Source: Viridothelium virens (lineage: Eukaryota > Ascomycota > Dothideomycetes > Trypetheliales > Trypetheliaceae). From it: DNA of 64,000 bases. The position numbers and the translations under genes were made by a program. Of this stretch, positions 34,270 through 45,357 are shown piece after piece. Location of the stretch: NCBI GenBank assembly GCA_010094025.1, contig ML991775.1:62001-126000 (forward strand), given 5' to 3'. The notes beneath the pieces are model-generated. The model made no database searches. It had not been told where the DNA came from and worked only from the letters and a program-made list of their open reading frames with translations. The first letter of the stretch is position 1. The number at the start of each line of letters is the position of its first letter.

Positions 34270-36110
34270 TCATATTTCCTTGTGTGTGGTGCTAAGGTCC
34301 TGTATCTTTTCAACATCGAAACCCGCGTGTATGTTGGTGGTCATCCCCGTATTCTTCTCTTTCAGCAACGCAAAATTGCGCTCAGCGTCCCAAACCCAAG
34401 GAGAGTCTGATGCGAACAGGAAGTCCATTTCTTCTAGTGTACGCTGACTCGACTCCGGATATAGAGCCCAAACTATGGGAAAGGTTAGCAACGAGTACCG
34501 TCCTTCTATCGCAGCGCTCGCCTTACCTAAAGGGATACTAATAATATTACAAGCCCCGAAGATGTACAGAAGCTTTTCGTTGATCGCGCTGACGATATAT
34601 GGAAGAGCAAGAGTCAAAGATCTGAAGTTATGTCAGAAAGCATGAATTGAGTAGTCATCTGGGGTGAGATGTTACCCATTTGCGATACTCCATCCAACAA
34701 CACCCCAAGCATTCCCCTTTGCACGGACGTGCAGAGGAAATATTTCGGCTGGATATAGCCAAGGCACAGTAAGCCAGGTGGCCCCAAAGATGAAAGTATA
34801 GAGATACACCATCGAAGCGGCAGCAATTCCCCACTGACTTGCAGCATGCGCATCGCCAGATGCCGTAGCGTTAAGTCCGAGACGACAGAAGGCTCCCACT
34901 AGGAACATTGCAATCGCTTGTCCAGTTGCCCCCCACCACAAAGTCCAACGTCGACCAATTCTATCCAAGGTATAGACACAAATCAGCGTTGAGAACATGT
35001 AAAAGATATTGTTGAGACCAGAGACCCATTGTGCTTTCGTGGAGGTGAATCCGGCAATTCCAAAGATTGCTGCAGAAGGTTAGCAATTTTCTAAACCAAA
35101 ATACTTGGAGAGACTTACTTGGCCCAAACATGGTGATGCCAGCGATGCCGGTCCAGTCCTGCATAATCTGTAGCCACATTACGAGCTGTACCCTTCGGCC
35201 AATGTGCAACTTCTCGGAACCCAGACCAAACAACATATGGAAGTATGTCGTATGTTTGGCGGTCTTCTTCTCCAACTCCACTACACTAATGATGTCGTTT
35301 AATTCTGCTTCAGCTTTACCAGCATCCGTGCCCTGCTTTCCTCGCAGTCTTTCTAGGACGAAAAGGGCTTCATCATTTCGACCCACTTTGCAAAGCCAAC
35401 GTGGAGATTCTGGAAAGGCCCAGCAGATGAGAAGGAGCAAAAGTAGAAATATGATTTGGAATGCGATCGGAAAGCGCCATCGGACAGGCGACCAGCCGTT
35501 ATCCATGAAGCTGACGGCGTACTCCAGCCAATATGCAATAACAACCCCAAATATATTGAGAGTGAACTCGATAGCGATGAATTGGCCACGGGAGGTGTGT
35601 TCAGAGATCTCGGAAGCCCAGGCTGGAACAATAGCATTGAGAATGCCAGTACCGACGCCATTGACCAAACGTGCGCATATCATCCAAGCATGGTTCTGTG
35701 CAGAGCATTGAAGGGTTGCCCCAAGAATTGCCCACGCTGCACCGAGCCCAATGGTGATGATTCTGCCGTAACGGTCGCCCACCGATCCTCCGAGAAGGCA
35801 GCCCAAAAGTGTGCCCAGATAATAGACTGAGACAATGCCACCCTGAAGTAATGTACGAGTAATGACGGGATTGCCTTCGGCGTCGATATATCCAAGTCCC
35901 ATTTCGCGGATGTAATCATTGGACTCATTGACACCACCCATCATGCCTTGGTCATACCCTAGACTCCTCTGTTAGCTTTAGCAATCCGAAAGGAAAAGTG
36001 GTTCTCTAACCAAAGAAGAGGATCGCCAGGCCAGCAAGACAATTAACGGCGATAAGTAACTTGCGTTTCTCCAACTTCGACGCAACCATCCATGACTTGC
36101 GCTGATCCAT
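34270..36110 (-). CDS. MFS sugar transporter, five exons
   Basis: Predicted protein of 543 residues from exons 36110-36011, 35958-35119, 35069-34676, 34621-34527 and 34472-34270, with introns of 49-54 bases that close in frame. It belongs to the sugar porter family of the major facilitator superfamily, with 12 membrane helices in the plasma membrane. Signature pieces: FFGYDQGMMGGV after helix 1, GGSVGDRYGRI between helices 2 and 3, PESPRWL after helix 6, LDRIGRRWTLWWG in the second half, PAEIFPLHVRAKG after helix 10 and PESSQRTLEEMD after helix 12. The layout resembles fungal lactose or general hexose permeases, but the sugar cannot be read from the sequence. It is the left member of a likely sugar catabolic cluster and is probably under control of the Zn2Cys6 regulator at 41224. 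Confidence 0.95.
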
Positions 36111-36630
36111 GTCTTCTATCCTCTAAAGGTAGAACAGACTCTTTCCCAATCCACGCAAGTTAAGTTGTCTAATTTGTGCTCGCATGCAAGATCGAATAGA
36201 GAGACCAGCATGGGTTAATCGTTCATGGGGATTGATGGGCTCCTTTCTTGTCAGTTATATATCCATGGCGATTTGCTCCTTACGAAGCTAACGTTTCTTA
36301 GGGTTAGGTACGCACCACAACCGTAAGCGCCACGGATACAGAGTCATATTACGTACCTAGAGGTTAATCGGGGGGGTGACTGCCTCCGGCTCTCGTTACG
36401 AGTCCACTGTTCTAGACCTTCTCTCCAAAATCGACTCCGAGACCTCTCGAACACCCTGTCCTCTAAATGTTCAGACGCTAAACCGGACGGCCAAGTTCTT
36501 GGACTCTATATCCGATCTCTAGGATGACACGGTGTCAAATGGAAGGAAAGTCGGTCACCTCGCATCACCAAACCAGAGTAATGTTCCGACGTAGACCTAG
36601 AAAGATATACAATGATGTGCGAGTGCAACT
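36111..36630. other. intergenic
   Basis: Promoter side of the sugar transporter and 3' side of the aldo-keto reductase; no gene or repeat recognised. Confidence 0.5.
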
Positions 36631-37800
36631 TCAGTGAGTCCTTCCTCTGACTGCACCTTCAATGCCGTCTAAGTCACTATATAATCTCCACTCATAATCA
36701 AGACTGGGATCATTGAATCGAGCTTTTGCGTCCAGTGCTTCAATCTCATGCAAATCCTTTGGGTCCAATACAAAATCCGCCCCGATATTCTCCTCCAGCT
36801 GCCAATCTATGATACTTTTGGGAATGATTGATCGGTGGTTATTGACGCCCCATGCCAACGCTATTTGCGCTGCACTCTTGCCATACTTCGAGGCCAATCC
36901 TTTGAGAAGCGGTTGGTCTATCAATCGCACCATATGCGATATCTCCTTGCTCCAGCCGGTCTGTCGATAGAAGTCGTTCATGTTTCCCAGTGGACTGAAT
37001 TGCACGACGTGGATGCCTTTGCTTCGCAGCCATTCATTGAAAGTCTTCTGCTGCAAATATGGGTGGACTTCCATTTGGTGCACTGCAGGCACCACTGTAG
37101 CTTCTGTCAATAGCGTCTCAATTTCTCCCTTGCTGAACTTCGAAACCCCAATAGCTTTTGCTCTTCCTGTCTTCATCAACTTTTCCATCGCCTTCCACGT
37201 GTCCACAAAGCTCGTTTCCCCATGGATCTTCTGCCCGTTGGCATTTCGCGGAAATCGCTCAGAGCCTCTCGCAAAAGTGCAAGGGTAGTGCATCAATAGC
37301 AGATCGACATAAGGCGTATCAAGATCTCTCAAAGAATCTTCCAAAGCACGAGGTACGTCGTCGGGATGAAAGTCATTGCACCATAGCTTCGTACCAATGA
37401 ACAGCTCCTCTCGAGCGACGCCGCTTGTCTTGACACCTCTTCCCACTTCCTTTTCAATGTTGTAGACTCGTGCAGTGTCGATCAAACGAATGCCCCTTTG
37501 CAGAGCTCGACAAACTGTCTCCTCTTGAGCGTTCGCATCTTGGAATGTGCCAATGCCTATAGCTGGTATCCGATCTCCTGTATTCAGAGCAAATGTTGTT
37601 GCGGTCTGCAGGAAATGTCCTTGTGAGAAGTACCGGATTCGCGAAGTTGATTGCACCTTTGGAGGATGAGCTGCTCTCAACACTGTCAGTCTCGATAACA
37701 TCACGACGGCGAACTTCTTGCCACGGATCAGAGGGATGGACGAGATGGTACAAACCTCCAAGATCACTACGCGATAGTATAAAGCAGCTCTCGTAGCCAT
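36631..37800 (-). CDS. aldo-keto reductase, possibly mitochondrial
   Basis: Single-exon frame of 389 residues. The likely start is the Met at 37701 (MLSRLTVLRAAHPP), giving 356 residues with an Arg/Ser-rich amphipathic leader (to about RIRYFSQ) typical of mitochondrial targeting; the upstream ATG adds 33 poorly conserved residues. The rest is a TIM-barrel NADPH-dependent aldo-keto reductase: IPAIGIGTFQ, the catalytic Asp and Tyr in IDTARVYNIEKEVG, the Lys in FIGTKLW, and the His in VDLLLMHYP. Cofactor-binding residues appear near the end (SIIPKSIIDWQLEENIGA). Such enzymes reduce aldehydes or ketoses, for example sugar acids or 2-keto acids. Between a sugar transporter and a dehydrogenase/aldolase pair it could act in the same catabolic route; a mitochondrial leader would be unusual for that. 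Confidence 0.92.
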   Translation of the reverse strand: MATRAALYYRVVILEVCTISSIPLIRGKKFAVVMLSRLTVLRAAHPPKVQSTSRIRYFSQGHFLQTATTFALNTGDRIPAIGIGTFQDANAQEETVCRALQRGIRLIDTARVYNIEKEVGRGVKTSGVAREELFIGTKLWCNDFHPDDVPRALEDSLRDLDTPYVDLLLMHYPCTFARGSERFPRNANGQKIHGETSFVDTWKAMEKLMKTGRAKAIGVSKFSKGEIETLLTEATVVPAVHQMEVHPYLQQKTFNEWLRSKGIHVVQFSPLGNMNDFYRQTGWSKEISHMVRLIDQPLLKGLASKYGKSAAQIALAWGVNNHRSIIPKSIIDWQLEENIGADFVLDPKDLHEIEALDAKARFNDPSLDYEWRLYSDLDGIEGAVRGRTH

Positions 37801-38281
37801 TCACCAAAGCCTGTTACGACGTAGTCCCGGCGTCGTATTGTGGATAGTGAACCTATTTCCTCGGCTAGGGAACCATGTCCGCCATTCTTGGAATCCCCCG
37901 GACCGACCGTGCTCGAGCGCAACCTCGTCTCGGAGCCGAGCAACGACAATGCTAGGACCGACGATGCGTCCAAAATCTGTCTTCCTTGCCAACTCTATTT
38001 CGGCGTCGTCAATAATTGCCCGTCCACGGATGCGATCAGCAAGGGATTCTAATGGGTTACCAGCATTCTGGACTCTCATATCTGCCCGCAGTAATGTCGC
38101 TATTATGCGTGGCTCAACGTCAGAGTGCTAGTTTTCTCATGATTGCTTTCCCATATTAACTGCGATCCTGCGCTCTGCAAAATGATTTCTTTTCATCCGT
38201 GCATCCCATTGAAGGATCCATACACTATTAGACGATTCATTGTAAACTCACTGGCCTGCGACACAGCTCGACATTCTGGCT
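37801..38281. other. intergenic with a doubtful minus-strand ORF
   Basis: A 92-codon minus-strand frame at 37801-38079 has an ordered-looking sequence (IDDAEIELARKTDFGRIVG, VVARLRDEVALEHG) and ends just before the reductase start. It could be the tail of a lost gene; no family recognised. The right part is the promoter of the short-chain dehydrogenase. Confidence 0.3.
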
Positions 38282-39282
38282 ATGGCTGCAAACCACAATG
38301 ATAACGGCACAAACGGCTATATTACCAACAGTACAGCGGCGACACCGGCAACAACGCCTTGCATGGCGATCTCTCTAGCAGGCAAGGTCATTGCAAGTAA
38401 GCTTTCTCGATAACAGATTCAATCCATGAGGATGTCGGCGCTGATACGGAGGCAGTAACTGGCGCCAACAGAGGTGAGCACAAGATGTTTCCGCAGTATT
38501 GGAATATCTCCTCATCGTAGACTGCAGGCATTGGTCTGGGAATTGCAAATTCTTGCTTAACCAATGGCGCCGAGCATGTCTTTTCAATTGATATTGGCGA
38601 CACCGGTGAGGACTTCCTCGATGTGCAGAAGCAATTCCCCGGGAAACTCCACGCTATAAAGGCCGACGTGACGAAAGAAGACACAATCATACAAGCTCTT
38701 GATAGCATAATCGAGCAAGTAGGTAGTGTGAATGGCATGGTAGTTAATGCAGGCCGGACGAAACACAAGCCTGCACTTGACTTCACTACCGAGGAGATTG
38801 ATCAGCTATGGTCTATCAACCTATACGGGTCGTTCTACTGCGCACGAGCAGCAGCGAGAGCATTCATCAAGCAAGGAGTCAAGGGCTCCATTGTTTTTAC
38901 CGCTTCGATGGCCTCGTACCGTCCTAATAAAAGAGTCCCTTCTGCTCCTTATGGAGCAAGCAAAGCTGGCGTTCGCAACATGACTCATACACTAGCTTTG
39001 GAATGGGCGCAATACAATATTAGAGTAAACTCTGTCTCCCCGGGACTAGTGAATACTGCTATGACGTACTGGGTACCTCAACAGCCAGACTGGAATCAGC
39101 AACTGAAGTACTATGGCGGAATGCCAAGATTGGCTGAAGTTGAGGAATTGGGAGGGGCGTATGTGTACCTCCTGAGCGATGCTGCCAGCTACACGACGTC
39201 GATCGACATACCTGTCAATGGCGTCATCGGAAGTGAGTGCTCTCTTTCCCATTCGAATACATCCGTACTGATAGGTAGCTGA
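38282..39282 (+). CDS. short-chain dehydrogenase/reductase with 18-base micro-exon
   Basis: Exons 38282-38396, 38456-38473 and 38528 onwards. The 18-base second exon restores the Rossmann motif ITGANRGIGLGIA, which is otherwise cut in two, so the model is strongly supported. Other marks: IDIGDTG (cofactor-selecting acidic end of strand 2), ADVTKEDT, VNAGRTK (NAG motif), SINLYGSFY, catalytic Ser in TASMASY, and the YGASK Tyr-Lys pair, then VSPGLVNTAM. The C-terminus is either about GVIGSECSL... to 39282 or shorter if the GTGAGT at 39232 is used; I cannot decide. The family oxidises sugar alcohols or sugars with NAD(P)H. It is followed on the same strand by the class II aldolase, consistent with a shared pathway. 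Confidence 0.92.
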
Positions 39283-40174
39283 ACAGTCTGTTGAATTGCT
39301 AACTTTGACTGCTCTGAAAGAATGTATTGGCGATTAGGGTATTGTCTGGCATATGTTTCTTGCTTCAGGTTCAAATCATCGGTGAGATATCTACGGTATA
39401 AGTCTCATTCTTGTGGAATTTCGCAATGCGCTATCTTCTCAAATTAGTTAGATTCCGAGCTGTTGCAAGCCGGGCTTTTATATTATCGTTGCGCCGGGCA
39501 TTTAGATAGAGACTTATTCTTTGATCTTACTTAGTAAATTGACGACTTCAATACTTGTATGCAGGAAAAGTACCTAGTCATACTTTTCGTGAATGCATGA
39601 AGCAGCTTCAATTCCCAACTCTGTTGATGCAGAGTCTGCATAGTGTGTCCGACTCAATATGACTGTTCCAAGCTGCAGTGGTAGCGAGATTCAATCACTT
39701 TACAATATGTAAATATGCAGATGGTATGGAGGATTACGTTTAGGATAGATGTGCTTACCTGTGAATTACTACAAGTTAAATTTTAACGGGGCGAATTGTC
39801 GAACTGGCAGACTTCAATACTGTTGCTAGCTGCTGCCTCGTAACGAGCCGGAAACCCTTCTTCGTGCGCGTGGCGAGATACGAAGCTCGGGTCGTTGAAG
39901 CCCAAATAGGGTATTAGATGCGTAGATAATCAGCTCTGGGTCAAGACAAGGCCACGAGACGCGGTGGCTCAACGGACGGACGCGATCTAGCCGGCTGGGA
40001 GAATAGTACTTCTGCTTGTGACGCTTCATCTTTGGACTCGAACTTATTAAAGCTCCTTAGCCAACTAAGCAGCGAGCTGCTGAAATGAGACTTGAGACTG
40101 ACAATGTATTCGTGGGCAATAATGTGGGATTGCTAACTCTCCACCATTACATTTACAACACGCAAGCGTGCAAG
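39283..40174. other. intergenic
   Basis: No supported gene between the dehydrogenase and aldolase genes; it looks AT-rich around 39400-39800, though composition was not computed. A minus-strand frame at 39826-40029 has no features. The aldolase promoter should be on the right. Confidence 0.45.
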
Positions 40175-41164
40175 ATGGTCAACCTTAGAGATTGGCATGA
40201 CAGCAAGACTATTCACATCCTCAAGGATGCTGAAGAGCGCGGCTATGGAATCATCGCGTCCATGGTGTATGTAAACCATAAGACTACTTCTCGTTCTCTC
40301 TCGCTGATCTTTGACCTTCTCAAGATACAATATCGAGCAAATCATTGGAGTCGTGCGGGCTGCGGAGCAAAATCAATCTCCGTTGATCATCCAAGTGTTT
40401 CCATGGGCCATAACTTTCTCCGATGGCCTCCTTGTGAGAACAGCAGCAGATGCAGCGTCAAGGGCCTCCGTACCTATAGCTATTCATCTGGACCATTACC
40501 AAGATGAAAAGCTTGTGCGATATGCAGCGGATTATCTTCCATTCGACTCGATCATGATCGATATGTCGCACCACGAGAAAGCTGTCAATCTAGCCAAAAC
40601 GCGAGAGCTCGTCGCCTATTGCCATGCACGCGGAATCGCTACAGAAGCCGAGCCAGGACGGATAGAGGGTGGCGAAGATGGAGTTGCTGATACTATAGAT
40701 ATGCAAGGGATACTAACTACCCCTGAAGAGGTCGAAGAGTTTATTGCGACAGGAGTCGACTTTGTCGCTCCAGCTTTCGGGAACGTGCATGGAGAGTATG
40801 GGCCAGCAGGTCCGCAATTGAATTTTGATCAGCGAGTGATGAGTCTCCAAAGTTTCCTTTCCCAAACGCTGACATCGCACAAAGATTCGCGTCGATTAAG
40901 AAGCAAGTGAATGGCCGGGTAAAGCTTGTCGTTCACGGGACCAACGGCTTTCCTCCAGAATTGCTCCAAAGATGCATTCGGGCTGGAGTGAGCAAGATCA
41001 ACGTGAACAAGCTGGTGCTGGAAAATTATACACGTCACCTCCAGTCTAAGGCACCATATTTGACCATGACTCGGCTGATGGAGGAAGGTGTAAGTCATGT
41101 CATTGGTCAGCAAAAGGAGCAGATGGACATATGCTGGTCGAGCGGAAAGGCGCGGCCTGCCTAG
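40175..41164 (+). CDS. class II zinc aldolase (fructose/tagatose-bisphosphate type), three exons
   Basis: Predicted protein of about 288 residues from exons 40175-40266, 40325-40835 and 40901-41164. The first intron (GTATGT donor) rebuilds ASMVYNIEQIIG. Metal and phosphate ligands of class II aldolases are visible: IHLDHYQDE, ATEAEPGRIEGGED, GNVHGEYGPAG and VVHGTNGFPPE, then INVNKLVLENY. These enzymes cleave ketose phosphates to triose phosphate and an aldehyde. Fungal members of this shorter type sit apart from the glycolytic enzyme and often lie in sugar-catabolic gene sets. The second intron is odd: homology suggests FDQR joined to FASIKKQ, but canonical GT-AG sites do not give that junction. 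The model here uses the AAG at 40898-40900 and loses a few residues. The sugar is unknown. Confidence 0.9.
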
Positions 41165-41223
41165 TCATAGCTTTGAGTGACCTTTCTTTAAAGATGTCCT
41201 TGTCGACTGGAGATCTTCAGCTA

Positions 41224-42951
41224 TTACATAAGATCGTCGTTCGAGGGGATGTTATTCGGCCAACCTGTTGTTTCTCGGTGAGCTTGTAACAACGCCGCAA
41301 TTTCCTCTTTTTGTTGCGTTGTGTCTACATGCGTAGCTGCAGCATAAAGGCAATAAGTCGAAGTGATCATCGCTGCACCCTTTGAAGTACATTGTGCAAT
41401 GCCGCAAATACTGCTGACGCATTTTTGAACTTCAACCTTCCTAGATGTCAACTCTCTCGAGCCGCCTGTCGCAGGCATCATATCCAGAAGCAGCAGTTTA
41501 GCAAAGAAGTAGATTTGAACTGCAGCGCTTGCAGCTGGTGGATTGATCCAAATAGATTTGAAAGACGAATGCTCCGGACTTAGTACGGGCAACCGCCGGT
41601 CATGCTGTCTGAAGTAAGCCACCCATTCCTCAAGACTATTCCAGAGGCTCTGTCCTTTGTCAATCCTCCCTTGCATATCGAGTCGGCCGGCTTCTGTCTC
41701 TTTGTCGCTGATATAGTTGACGCATTGTCCAAGCAAGAAGAACGCACGATTCACAAGCTACCAAAAGTCGAGTTCTGAGCAACATCTCTTCAGCGAATAA
41801 AAGCTGAGAATCTTACGGCGCTCTTTGAATGCCGCCCAAATATCTTGCCTTAGCCAGGCCCACCAAATCCGTTTTTTCAGCCCTTCAGACTCTCCATGTA
41901 TAAGCTGCGAGCGCTGGATCCAGAAAACTCCTTTCAAGTGTCTCTCCCATCCACTTCCACAGCCGTCAATCATTTCAAACGTGGATATTATCAACACAGT
42001 CGCTAGTAAGTGGTCGCTGCGAAGATATGTACTGTCTTGCATTGCTTGCTGCAGATACTGTAGAGCCTCGCTGTAATACCGTACCGAGAGTGTCCGGTCT
42101 GAGGAAATACTCTCACTCGGCGAGGCAAATGCGGGCCGCAAGGATAAGTGACGGGCAGACAGGGCTAGTACAGCCTTCATGAGACCTTTGTTTCTAAGTG
42201 CCATTGAGGGAACAACTATAGAAAAGGATTGATCTGGATCCGTGAGATCAATCCATGAGCTAAGATGGTTTACAAAGTGCTGCAGTAATGAAAGTTCATG
42301 TCGAGATAACGGCACCTCCTCATCACTCACATATGTCTCTGCTTCTGTTGTTGTTGAGCATGCTGATAATGCCGCGCCTTTGTCGTTGAAGTTGTTTACA
42401 GGCTGTGAAGGTGCAACATCGAGAGTTGCCGGTATCTTCTGCAAAATTTCTAGCTGTGTATCGACGGCGTCTGTTGCAAGCAGATTGAGCCAGCCAAGTG
42501 ATGCGGCTTCGGCAGTAAAGCCGGGACCAGCACTCCAGGACGATTCTGGGCTAGTTCCATAAAAAGCCAACTCCGATGGGAACTTTGTGCTCTCTAGATC
42601 AGTCAAAGGAAGCAAGGTTGAAGGTGCTTCATTCAGGGTTTGAGCGTAGTTGTGGTCCGCCTGCGACGTGATATCCTCAGTCTCTGGTGGTGGCTCACTT
42701 GACCCTATGTATTGTTGATGATCATGTACGGATTCAAATTCGGGCGGTCTTGTTGTACTCTTGTCGGGCTTGGACTGCCCTCCTTGCTCATACACACATG
42801 TGTGATCTGATTTCTCACGACGGCAGCGTGGCTTCTCTTCACCACATTTGACGTGACGAGCACGGCAAGCCACGCATCCTGTTCGCGTTCGTAATCCACT
42901 GCCGCGCGGCTTTCGTATGCGCTTGTGTGATGTCGTTACATTTGAGCTCAT
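41224..42951 (-). CDS. Zn2Cys6 transcription factor with in-frame stop and altered zinc cluster
   Basis: A continuous minus-strand frame of 576 codons with one internal TAG at 41760-41758, where the protein reads ELDFW-stop-LVNRAFFLLGQ. Both sides match a fungal regulator: N-terminal zinc cluster (about residues 25-52), a disordered linker, and the Fungal_trans_2-type middle region (LLQHFVNHLSSWIDL, LWLRQDIWAAFKERR-like block) running across the stop to the C-terminus. No intron with canonical sites keeps the frame while removing the stop; the only good donor, GTAAGA about 60 bases upstream, gives a 59-base intron that shifts the frame. The cluster reads CVACRARHVKC-GEEKPRC-RREKSDHTC: the fifth cysteine is absent, as if one codon were missing after RR. 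It is likely the local regulator of the sugar gene cluster, possibly no longer working. The flanking aldolase and dehydrogenase lie within a few hundred bases. Confidence 0.85.
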
Positions 42952-43354
42952 GCCTCGTCACGATAGTGGTCGTTTTTTGGGGGCGTCTTGAGATTGGAAA
43001 TGCGTGGGTGATAGAGTAGAGTACCGTAAAGGCCTTCGTAACGAGACTTGGACTTTAGCCGAAGTGCCCCGCATCGAGCCCAAAGTCCGGCAGCACAGTT
43101 CGGCGTATCACCATATGTCTATTTCAAGCCTCTCGATTAATCGACAAATGCAGGATGACGAGTACGCTTGCAAGAACTGCAGAAATTGTGCTCAAGATTC
43201 GCCGAGTGGAGGGTGAGAGCTACATGGAATGCAATCATCGAGAATAACCATGTCAGGCCATGCGGCAATTCTCACGCATTCAACATTGAGAATAGGGAGC
43301 ATAAGAGCGATATCTGACCTATGATTGACATGATGTAGCACAAATGTAGGCCAT
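42952..43354. other. intergenic
   Basis: Promoter side of the Zn2Cys6 gene and 3' side of the next dehydrogenase; no gene supported. Confidence 0.5.
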
Positions 43355-44192
43355 TTATTGGAGAGATATCGACAAGCCTCCATCTACACGTATCTCCGCT
43401 CCAGATACGTACTTGCTCAAATCACTTGCAAGAAATACTGCTGGCCCAGCTATGTCCTCGGGATTGGCCACTCGTCCCATCGGCATCCTTTTTTCTAGAT
43501 ATTTGAGCTTGTCTTCATCCGCAAGATCTTCAGCCGCCAATTGCGTCCTTGTTGTACCTGGCAACAATGCATTGCACCGGATACCATACTTGCCCAAAGC
43601 ACAAGCTGAGGATTGCATCATGCTTAATACAGCGGCTTTCGTGGGTGTGTAGTGGACCTGCTGCGCGCCTCCTAAATGAGCGCTTATCGAGGAAATGCCA
43701 ATAATACTTCCTCCATGCCCCTGACGAATCATCTGGTTGGCAGCCGCTTGCGTTGTCCAGAACGTGCCTTGAACATTAGTTTGTATATGTGACTCCAACG
43801 TTGATTTATCAAGGCTGTCAAAGGCGTATCAGCAGACGGGTCACCAGAATACATCGGTCAAGGACAACATACGTCAGGAAATCCCGGAATTGACTGACAC
43901 CTGCGTTGGCAACAAAGACATCCAAGCCCCCAAACTGACTAATGGATGCTTCAACAATCTCGAGACCAGTCTCCCTTTGCTTGATATCTCCTACAAGTTC
44001 GTGTAGTCTTGACCCCTGGATGCTAGAGGCTTCTCTCTGAAGGCTTTTGAAGTGTTGCCGAGAGAGTTCGTCGTCCATAAAATTAACCGTCACCGATGCA
44101 CCATGCCTCAGAAAATCTAGTGCAATGGCTCGGCCGATGCCTATCACGCCGCCTGTTATGGCTGCTGCCTTTCCCACGAGGAGGGAGGACAT
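43355..44192 (-). CDS. short-chain dehydrogenase/reductase, two exons
   Basis: Predicted protein of 259 residues from exons 44192-43873 and 43814-43355, with a 58-base phase-2 intron (GTATGT donor). Classical SDR marks: AAITGGVIGIGRAIA (cofactor-binding Gly motif, about residues 10-24), VNFMDDE, VGDIKQRET, VANAGVS, catalytic Ser in GISSISAHLGG, YTPTK (Tyr-Lys pair), LLPGTTRTQL and the C-terminal GGLSISLQ. It resembles the glucose 1-dehydrogenase-like and 3-ketoacyl reductase-like SDRs that oxidise sugars. Its length is usual for the family. With the transporter, reductase, first SDR and aldolase it completes the presumed sugar cluster. The substrate is unknown. Confidence 0.93.
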
Positions 44193-45357
44193 ATTTTGTG
44201 CTGAAGATAAAGATTGTTGGGCATGTTAAGCCGCTCGAGTGACATTGTGGGTCGAAATAACTGATCAAGTCTTCCATTGCGCTTGAGAGGAGGTGGAGAA
44301 CCCAATCTGGCCATGATAATCTTTACCGGGACCGCGTAACGAAGGATGCTCGTGTCGGTGTCGTTTAGCGAACCTCAAAGATCGACCATTAGCCGATCCG
44401 GCCTTGTCCTTAATTGCCATAGTAGGTTTCTCATGAAGCTCCAACGTCAGGCCTATATCGCTTGGCGCGACTGGGATTGGGACTGGCTTTGGGTTTCGGC
44501 TGTCGTGTCGATGCGTTCAGTCATTGTCATGGACTTCATCAATCGAACTTCTGGGAAGAGGCCGAGCAGCCTGAGCAGGGATTGAGCGAACGTTGAGCCG
44601 ATGGCTTAGCTTACCACTTTTAGCCTTGTATGAATCTAACCTATCTCAGTAATGAACGTGGTTTTTCCACCTTCGAGAACAACTATACCGGCTGAACTAG
44701 CACGGATCGGTATTAGTTCAGGATAGAACCGCCCGCTTTCGTTTTTATCAGAGGCGGGTGCTTCCAATACTTATTCTTGTGTTCGACGTCGTACACAATA
44801 TTTTCAAGGAAGAAAGAAAGTAATGCCGCACTGTGCCCAAGGATGCAATAGAATTCCTATTGCTAGCGGCCTCGGACCTGCCGCTCAGATCTACTGCCAT
44901 CTCAAGGAGAGAGGCAAGGCAGGCTATTTAAATGTTTCAAGGACATCCAGTAGATCAAGCGACGAGCTCATACCGCGAGATAATATATGAAAGCAATGTG
45001 CGTCTATATGCAAAAAGGCAATGACTTTTGATTGGATTCGGTGTGCCGTTCCTTGCTTATCCTGTCCTGTCTAAAGCAGTCATAGACTTTAGGACTCCTT
45101 CAAACTCAATTAATGATCCTTGATTCAATTCTGGAGGCGTTTTCGCTCACATTCTTCTCAACCAACGTTCTTGGACGATGTGGGAAGCCATGCGATGCAT
45201 GCTACTTTGCACTGCAATTTCTGGACTGGTATCATCCCTCCTCGACAAAATGCAGTCAAAGCAGGATATTCGCCAGGTCATAAAGTCATAACATCGTAGC
45301 TCGTATGAGCCATGCATTTCGGAACGGTCGTTAATGCTGACTCGAGAGGGTTCCTCG
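44193..45357. other. 1.2 kb intergenic
   Basis: No supported gene. Short plus-strand frames near 44346-44585 are unremarkable. The left part is the promoter side of the dehydrogenase, the right part the 3' side of the ankyrin gene. Confidence 0.5.

Follow-up and report, generated by a model that had tools for sequence, protein, structure and literature searches.

The 64-kb window analysed here lies on contig C5 (ML991775.1) of the ascomycete Viridothelium virens, whose assembled genome comprises 30.7 Mb in 175 contigs. The kinds of gene present (Zn2Cys6, Fungal_trans_2, short introns) agree with an ascomycete origin. Between positions 34270 and 44192, translated frames, joined exons and Pfam matches place the genes of a sugar porter, an aldo-keto reductase (AKR), two short-chain dehydrogenases/reductases (SDR1 and SDR2), a class II zinc aldolase and a Zn2Cys6 regulator, and the six gene families claimed for this locus by the initial annotation are thus borne out in kind as well as in position. 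These genes are tentatively read as a cluster with which the fungus breaks down a single sugar or polyol, under common control via a palindromic promoter element, and a probability of roughly 0.45 is given to this reading. Judged from its sequence, the locus is plausibly an uncharacterised sugar cluster, probably co-regulated, whose local regulator is damaged. The open-access literature yielded no account of these genes as a set, as judged by titles and the openings of abstracts.

Evidence for a proposed cluster under common control

Clean exon models devoid of internal stops were obtained for the porter, AKR, SDR1, aldolase and SDR2 genes, the Zn2Cys6 gene being the exception. No recognisable gene intervenes, which agrees with the earlier statement that nothing unrelated lies in between; the sole long unassigned intergenic frame tested, 108 codons on the minus strand between the AKR and SDR1 genes (37804-38127), has no Pfam match. 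Across the genome, manual grouping of 46 exon-level matches gives about 30 AKR genes, the 73 exon-level matches to an SDR2 query set a lower bound for SDRs, and sugar-porter candidates amount to at most 230, nine of which were scored. If gene order is taken to be random, the probability that one or another of the three short aldolase genes would have a porter, an AKR and two SDRs as neighbours within 10 kb is roughly estimated to be on the order of 1e-6.

The palindrome CTCGTWACGAG precedes four of the six genes (porter, aldolase, regulator and SDR2), with two exact sites, one carrying a single mismatch and one carrying two. Its core 8-mer, CGTAACGA, has four copies in the window, all of them in these four promoters, a number that none of 100 shuffles reached. 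When every 11-base palindrome class was scored over five promoters, the observed score was attained neither by shuffled promoter sets (0/400 and 0/4185) nor by sets of real segments (0/400 and 0/3080). An exact palindrome common to two segments was seen in 0/400 shuffled sets, but in 11 of 400 real ones. Genome-wide, 12 exact palindromes were found, two of them in this cluster.

Several observations have to be set against a cluster controlled in common through this element. The palindrome was first spotted by eye, and its length and the score weights were chosen afterwards. Of 3000 random segment sets, 312 pass a choice-free search for any 8-mer present in at least four of five segments, and in 94 of those the shared 8-mer occurs nowhere else. 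When up to two mismatches are allowed, the window shows no enrichment (17 matches, where shuffles average 12 and 7/100 attain that number), ten of the matches falling outside the cluster stretch and seven inside it, including one within the porter gene; likewise, the 14 window matches to a 9-base core with one mismatch were reached by 6/100 shuffles. Since the two-mismatch form is not enriched, the SDR2 site is weak on its own. The palindrome is not over-represented in the genome (12 occurrences against 23 for a reversed control pattern), and the divergent promoter between AKR and SDR1 lacks it, the best site there having three mismatches. The ten exact copies outside the cluster lie near unrelated-looking frames, as judged by eye without a family search, and a wider palindrome regulon was rejected on this account. 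Furthermore, the Pfam matches obtained in the cluster include no kinase, lactonase or dehydratase, as had already been noted for this locus, and the damage to the regulator gene could signal decay of the whole cluster.

A second word, GGCTCAACG, is present in three cluster promoters (at 38111 and 39966, and as its reverse complement at 44591) and nowhere else in the window. It was discarded as a promoter element for want of significance, 43 of 500 random sets holding at least one such word.

The points above bear directly on the view that no single pathway is encoded here, the genes being either chance neighbours among unrelated sugar genes or the members of a decaying relic cluster. The damaged regulator, the AKR-SDR1 promoter devoid of a palindrome and the neighbourhoods of the two aldolase paralogues (described below) are all in line with this view, whereas the rough 1e-6 probability of the family combination, the palindrome common to four promoters and the five gene models free of internal stops are not, and we regard it as improbable.

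Gene models and flanks

The coordinates of the genes and of the palindromes are collected in Table 1.

Table 1. Genes of the candidate sugar cluster and their promoter palindromes (positions in the 64-kb window)
Feature	Position	Strand	Details
Sugar porter	34270..36110	-	PF00083, E 5e-80; 561 aa, 4 exons
Porter exons	36011-36110, 35119-35958, 34676-35069, 34270-34621	-	three introns, each GT-AG
Aldo-keto reductase (AKR)	36631..37800	-	PF00248, E 1e-42; single exon
SDR1	38282..39294	+	PF13561/PF00106; 281 aa
SDR1 introns	38397-38455, 38474-38527, 39233-39286	+	final exon 8 bases only
Class II aldolase	40175..41164	+	PF01116, E 1.1e-81; 292 aa
Aldolase introns	40267-40324 (GT-AG), 40832-40884 (GC-AG)	+	spliced model
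Zn2Cys6 / Fungal_trans_2 regulator gene, apparently broken	41224..42951	-	Zn_clus E 9e-5; Fungal_trans_2 E 4e-21
SDR2	43355..44192	-	PF13561/PF00106; 259 aa; intron 43815-43872
Exact palindrome CTCGTTACGAG	36392..36402		282 bp upstream of porter ATG
Exact palindrome CTCGTAACGAG	39837..39847		328 bp upstream of aldolase ATG
1-mismatch palindrome TTCGTAACGAG	43035..43045		84 bp upstream of regulator ATG
2-mismatch palindrome CGCGTAACGAA, holding core 8-mer CGTAACGA	44333..44343		141 bp upstream of SDR2 ATG; weakest site

All introns in the five clean models are of the GT-AG type save one, the second intron of the aldolase gene, with GC at its start. This intron gains credibility from the aldolase paralogue on contig C6, which has an intron, there GT-AG, at the same position and in the same phase. 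The AKR may start at the ATG at 37800 (389 aa) or at that at 37701 (356 aa), and its N-terminus (37615-37701), rich in arginine and serine (..RIRYFSQ..), presumably resembles a mitochondrial signal. The solved relatives of the AKR are aldehyde and aldose reductases, and its match to the NCBIfam DkgA model scores far below the cut-off. For SDR1, NADP-mannitol dehydrogenases are the top three nearest solved structures and account for three of the five relatives listed.

Five flanking frames were tested: Pfam gave no match for the three to the left of the cluster, while those to its right, two in number, encode a protein with ankyrin repeats and a CorA transporter. None of these five adds a sugar gene to either edge of the cluster, a gene-by-gene survey of the flanks not having been made.

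The aldolase and the question of a kinase

The aldolase is closest to the solved structure 3pm6 (313 bits, against 132 bits for the next solved relative), and it is 53% identical to this protein and 51% and 55% identical to two paralogues of the same genome, on contigs C13 and C6. The structure 3pm6, which we take to come from Coccidioides immitis, is labelled a “putative fructose-bisphosphate aldolase” and belongs to the same subgroup, with both of the pocket positions discussed below replaced; no functional test of it was found, a full-text literature search for the word 3PM6 having given no match. A fourth PF01116 gene, on contig C7, probably encodes the glycolytic enzyme. Aldolases of the PF00596 family were considered and dismissed as the wrong family. 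Scans with two short peptide patterns for prokaryotic and viral relatives matched 75 genome and 94 viral contig stretches, none of which was confirmed, and relatives devoid of those two patterns would be missed by such scans.

In an alignment with E. coli YdjI, KbaY, GatY and FbaA, residues D87, H88, E138, E140, H186, H217 and N239 of the window aldolase are invariant, and we take these positions to be the catalytic aspartate and the zinc-binding residues. The side chains that hold the C1 phosphate in bisphosphate aldolases are presumably those of Ser267 and Thr289 of FbaA. At these putative phosphate positions, all four E. coli enzymes have serine and threonine, whereas the window aldolase has N220 and K242 and all four fungal sequences are changed (N/D/T/D at the first position, K/K/K/R at the second). 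Neither lysine nor arginine was seen at the pocket positions of four further chains (1rv8, 2fjk, 3gak and 7nc7). Variation also exists among named fructose-bisphosphate aldolases, 7nc7 having threonine at the first position and 3gak serine at the second. All 20 NCBIfam aldolase models matched at E 1e-5 scored below their cut-offs, these models being built for prokaryotes. The changed residues suggest that a different group is accommodated at C1, though a basic residue could also bind phosphate.

Since the aldolase lacks the two side chains presumed to hold the C1 phosphate, a kinase is perhaps not needed. Hence, of the earlier remark that the phosphate donor is missing locally, the observation stands, no kinase being matched in the cluster, while the premise that a phosphate is required may be wrong. 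Carried further, this would give a kinase-free route, in which a fungal PF01116 subgroup with a phosphate pocket altered to lysine or arginine cleaves an unphosphorylated keto-aldonate or ketose supplied by an L-sugar dehydrogenase paralogue; kinase, lactonase and dehydratase would therefore not be needed. Such a route is held to be doubtful, and slightly more so for the deviations of 7nc7 and 3gak at the pocket positions.

A phosphorylated route resembling the ydj and galactitol systems of E. coli has a better claim, even though it too is rather unlikely. Here, the AKR or an SDR would yield a ketose, an unlinked kinase would phosphorylate it at C1, and cleavage would give dihydroxyacetone phosphate and an aldehyde. 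Solved PF01116 relatives are mostly named fructose- or tagatose-bisphosphate aldolases, the ydj cluster itself couples a kinase to an aldolase of this family, and both the phosphate-binding capacity that a lysine or arginine might have and the deviations in 7nc7 and 3gak leave room for a phosphorylated substrate. The route is opposed by the consistent loss of serine and threonine from the fungal pocket in favour of a basic second residue, as well as by the missing kinase: beyond the cluster, the genome has no match to the PF07005 (DUF1537-type) kinase at E 0.001, other kinase families not having been searched.

Neighbourhoods of the aldolase paralogues

No SDR2 or PF00248 match was found in the stretches fetched around the other two short aldolase genes (C6:1-9900 and C13:222000-249000). 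On C13 (L035 2945-5810), the aldolase gene is divergent from a gene with the 3-hydroxyisobutyrate-dehydrogenase-type domains PF03446 and PF14833, and the same stretch has a frame (L039 1116-2400) that looks epimerase-like by eye. The divergent pair is reminiscent of plant proteins in which such domains are fused. The C13 arrangement prompted consideration of a threonate-type route, which was rejected given that the genome lacks a PF07005 match. On C6, a pectinesterase-family frame (PF01095; L036 2-712) near the contig end is separated by about 4 kb from the short aldolase gene there, the third of its kind.

SDR2 and the rhamnose pathway

The best solved relative of SDR2 is the SDR 7b81 (237 bits, the next being at 137 bits), which we take to be the bacterial L-rhamnose dehydrogenase of Azotobacter. 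Its top NCBIfam model is likewise L-rhamnose 1-dehydrogenase (NF053807, 305 bits; next model 212), although the curated cut-off of 400 bits is reached neither by SDR2 nor by the genome's own LraA-like protein (363 bits). The latter, homologous to SDR2 and 60% identical to it, is encoded on contig C54 (L034, G000:C54:171500-181400) adjoining an amidohydrolase gene (PF04909) and a gene of the DHDPS family (PF00701), and these are likely the rhamnose-type genes of this genome. As SDR2 is thus a paralogue of an LraA-like protein encoded elsewhere beside a lactonase-type gene, the present locus is not the rhamnose cluster, and the earlier impression of a mismatch with the rhamnose route of fungi proved correct. 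In the fungal LRA cluster, lactonase and dehydratase genes adjoin the dehydrogenase, unlike here, where the Pfam matches include neither. Furthermore, a threonine in the motif TGGLTGIGR is described as the NAD signature of fungal LraA in PMC12028159; the C54 copy retains this residue, and SDR2 has isoleucine (Ile17) in its place.

It is nonetheless conceivable that the cluster serves as a second branch for 6-deoxy-sugars of the rhamnose or fucose kind, where SDR2 would oxidise the L-sugar and share the remaining steps with the C54 genes. The paralogy of SDR2 with LraA would fit such a branch, as would the uncharacterised status, according to PMC12028159, of NRRL3_8837, the only LraA paralogue of A. 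niger (56% identical to LraA). NRRL3_8837, a possible orthologue of SDR2, is, however, reported there as poorly expressed on L-rhamnose, and the signature threonine is lost from SDR2. In addition, LGD1 and LGA1 are the proposed partners of FDH1, the fucose enzyme of T. reesei (PMC12370193), and no dehydratase is matched in the cluster. A 6-deoxy-sugar branch is accordingly considered very improbable.

The damaged regulator gene

The claim that the cluster has its own regulator was not upheld for an intact gene. From 42951, the frame runs for 397 codons to an in-frame TAG (41758-41760) that falls inside the middle homology region and splits the domain, after which 177 more codons are open. Aligned separately to paralogues of the same genome, the N-terminal half and the C-terminal half (the 177 codons) both find matches. 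Both halves lie in one open frame at three of eight paralogue loci (L026, L028 and L032, with modest C-terminal scores of 55, 93 and 60), they align in different frames at L033, and at L027 and L029-L031 no alignment of the C-terminal half exceeded the threshold set. The zinc cluster, C-x2-C-x6-C-x6-C-RR-EKSDHT-C, lacks its fifth cysteine, a residue present in all three of the paralogues aligned across this position (L030-L032); even so, the match to the Zn_clus model lies narrowly above the cut-off (23 against 21 bits). With two independent lesions, a working classical Zn2Cys6 factor is unlikely.

An assembly error could possibly account for the TAG, but not for the missing cysteine. Excision of the TAG by an intron was rejected, because the in-frame introns visible by eye would remove conserved sequence. 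The TAG might also be edited at the RNA level, though support for this is weak: fungal A-to-I editing favours U at position -1 and hairpin loops (PMC11169179), and here a U does precede the A, but the A is placed in a predicted stem and the fold is no better than those of shuffled sequences.

Proposed pathway

The substrate of the cluster is probably an L-sugar or a derivative thereof. The porter would bring in the sugar or polyol; SDR2, as a paralogue of L-rhamnose dehydrogenase, may act at C1 of an L-aldose; and together with SDR1, which is of the polyol/ketose dehydrogenase type, it would convert the substrate to a 2-keto compound. The zinc aldolase is predicted to cleave this compound between C3 and C4, and the AKR might reduce either the aldehyde fragment or the starting aldose, the order among the AKR and the SDRs, and their substrates, being putative. 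The porter, aldolase, regulator and SDR2 genes would be controlled together through the palindrome, and possibly co-expressed; as the local Zn2Cys6 gene is damaged, the factor binding the palindrome is probably encoded at an unlinked locus at present, or control is being lost. Of the initial proposal of a carbohydrate catabolic cluster with its own regulator, the cluster thus stays the best reading, now with the palindrome as additional support, while the regulator has to be described as damaged.

Significance and comparison with known systems

To our knowledge, few of the pathways by which fungi break down sugars have been elucidated. The locus provides a circumscribed set of genes, a putative element for their control and a subgroup of aldolases in which one relative (3pm6) has a solved structure, and its broken regulator offers an example of a cluster that is being rewired or is decaying. 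The locus is also relevant to the LraA paralogues, which are termed interesting candidates for future studies in PMC12028159.

Among known systems, the ydjE-ydjL genes of E. coli encode two transporters, a regulator, an AKR, the kinase YdjH, the aldolase YdjI and two dehydrogenases, all adjoining; YdjI is annotated for octuluronate 1-phosphate and YdjH as the octuluronate kinase. The fungal oxidoreductive pentose and galactose routes follow the same logic of an aldose reductase and a polyol dehydrogenase as this cluster, whereas, as far as we know, they use no short PF01116 aldolase and are usually unclustered. The ydj cluster differs in being bacterial, in having the kinase gene ydjH where the fungal cluster has no kinase match, in dehydrogenases that are annotated as zinc-binding, and in an aldolase that is 29% identical to the one in the window and keeps the serine and threonine presumed to hold phosphate. 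In both, however, a transporter, a regulator, an AKR, dehydrogenases and a PF01116 aldolase adjoin, and by this analogy of gene content the ydj cluster is the closest working analogue of the fungal cluster.

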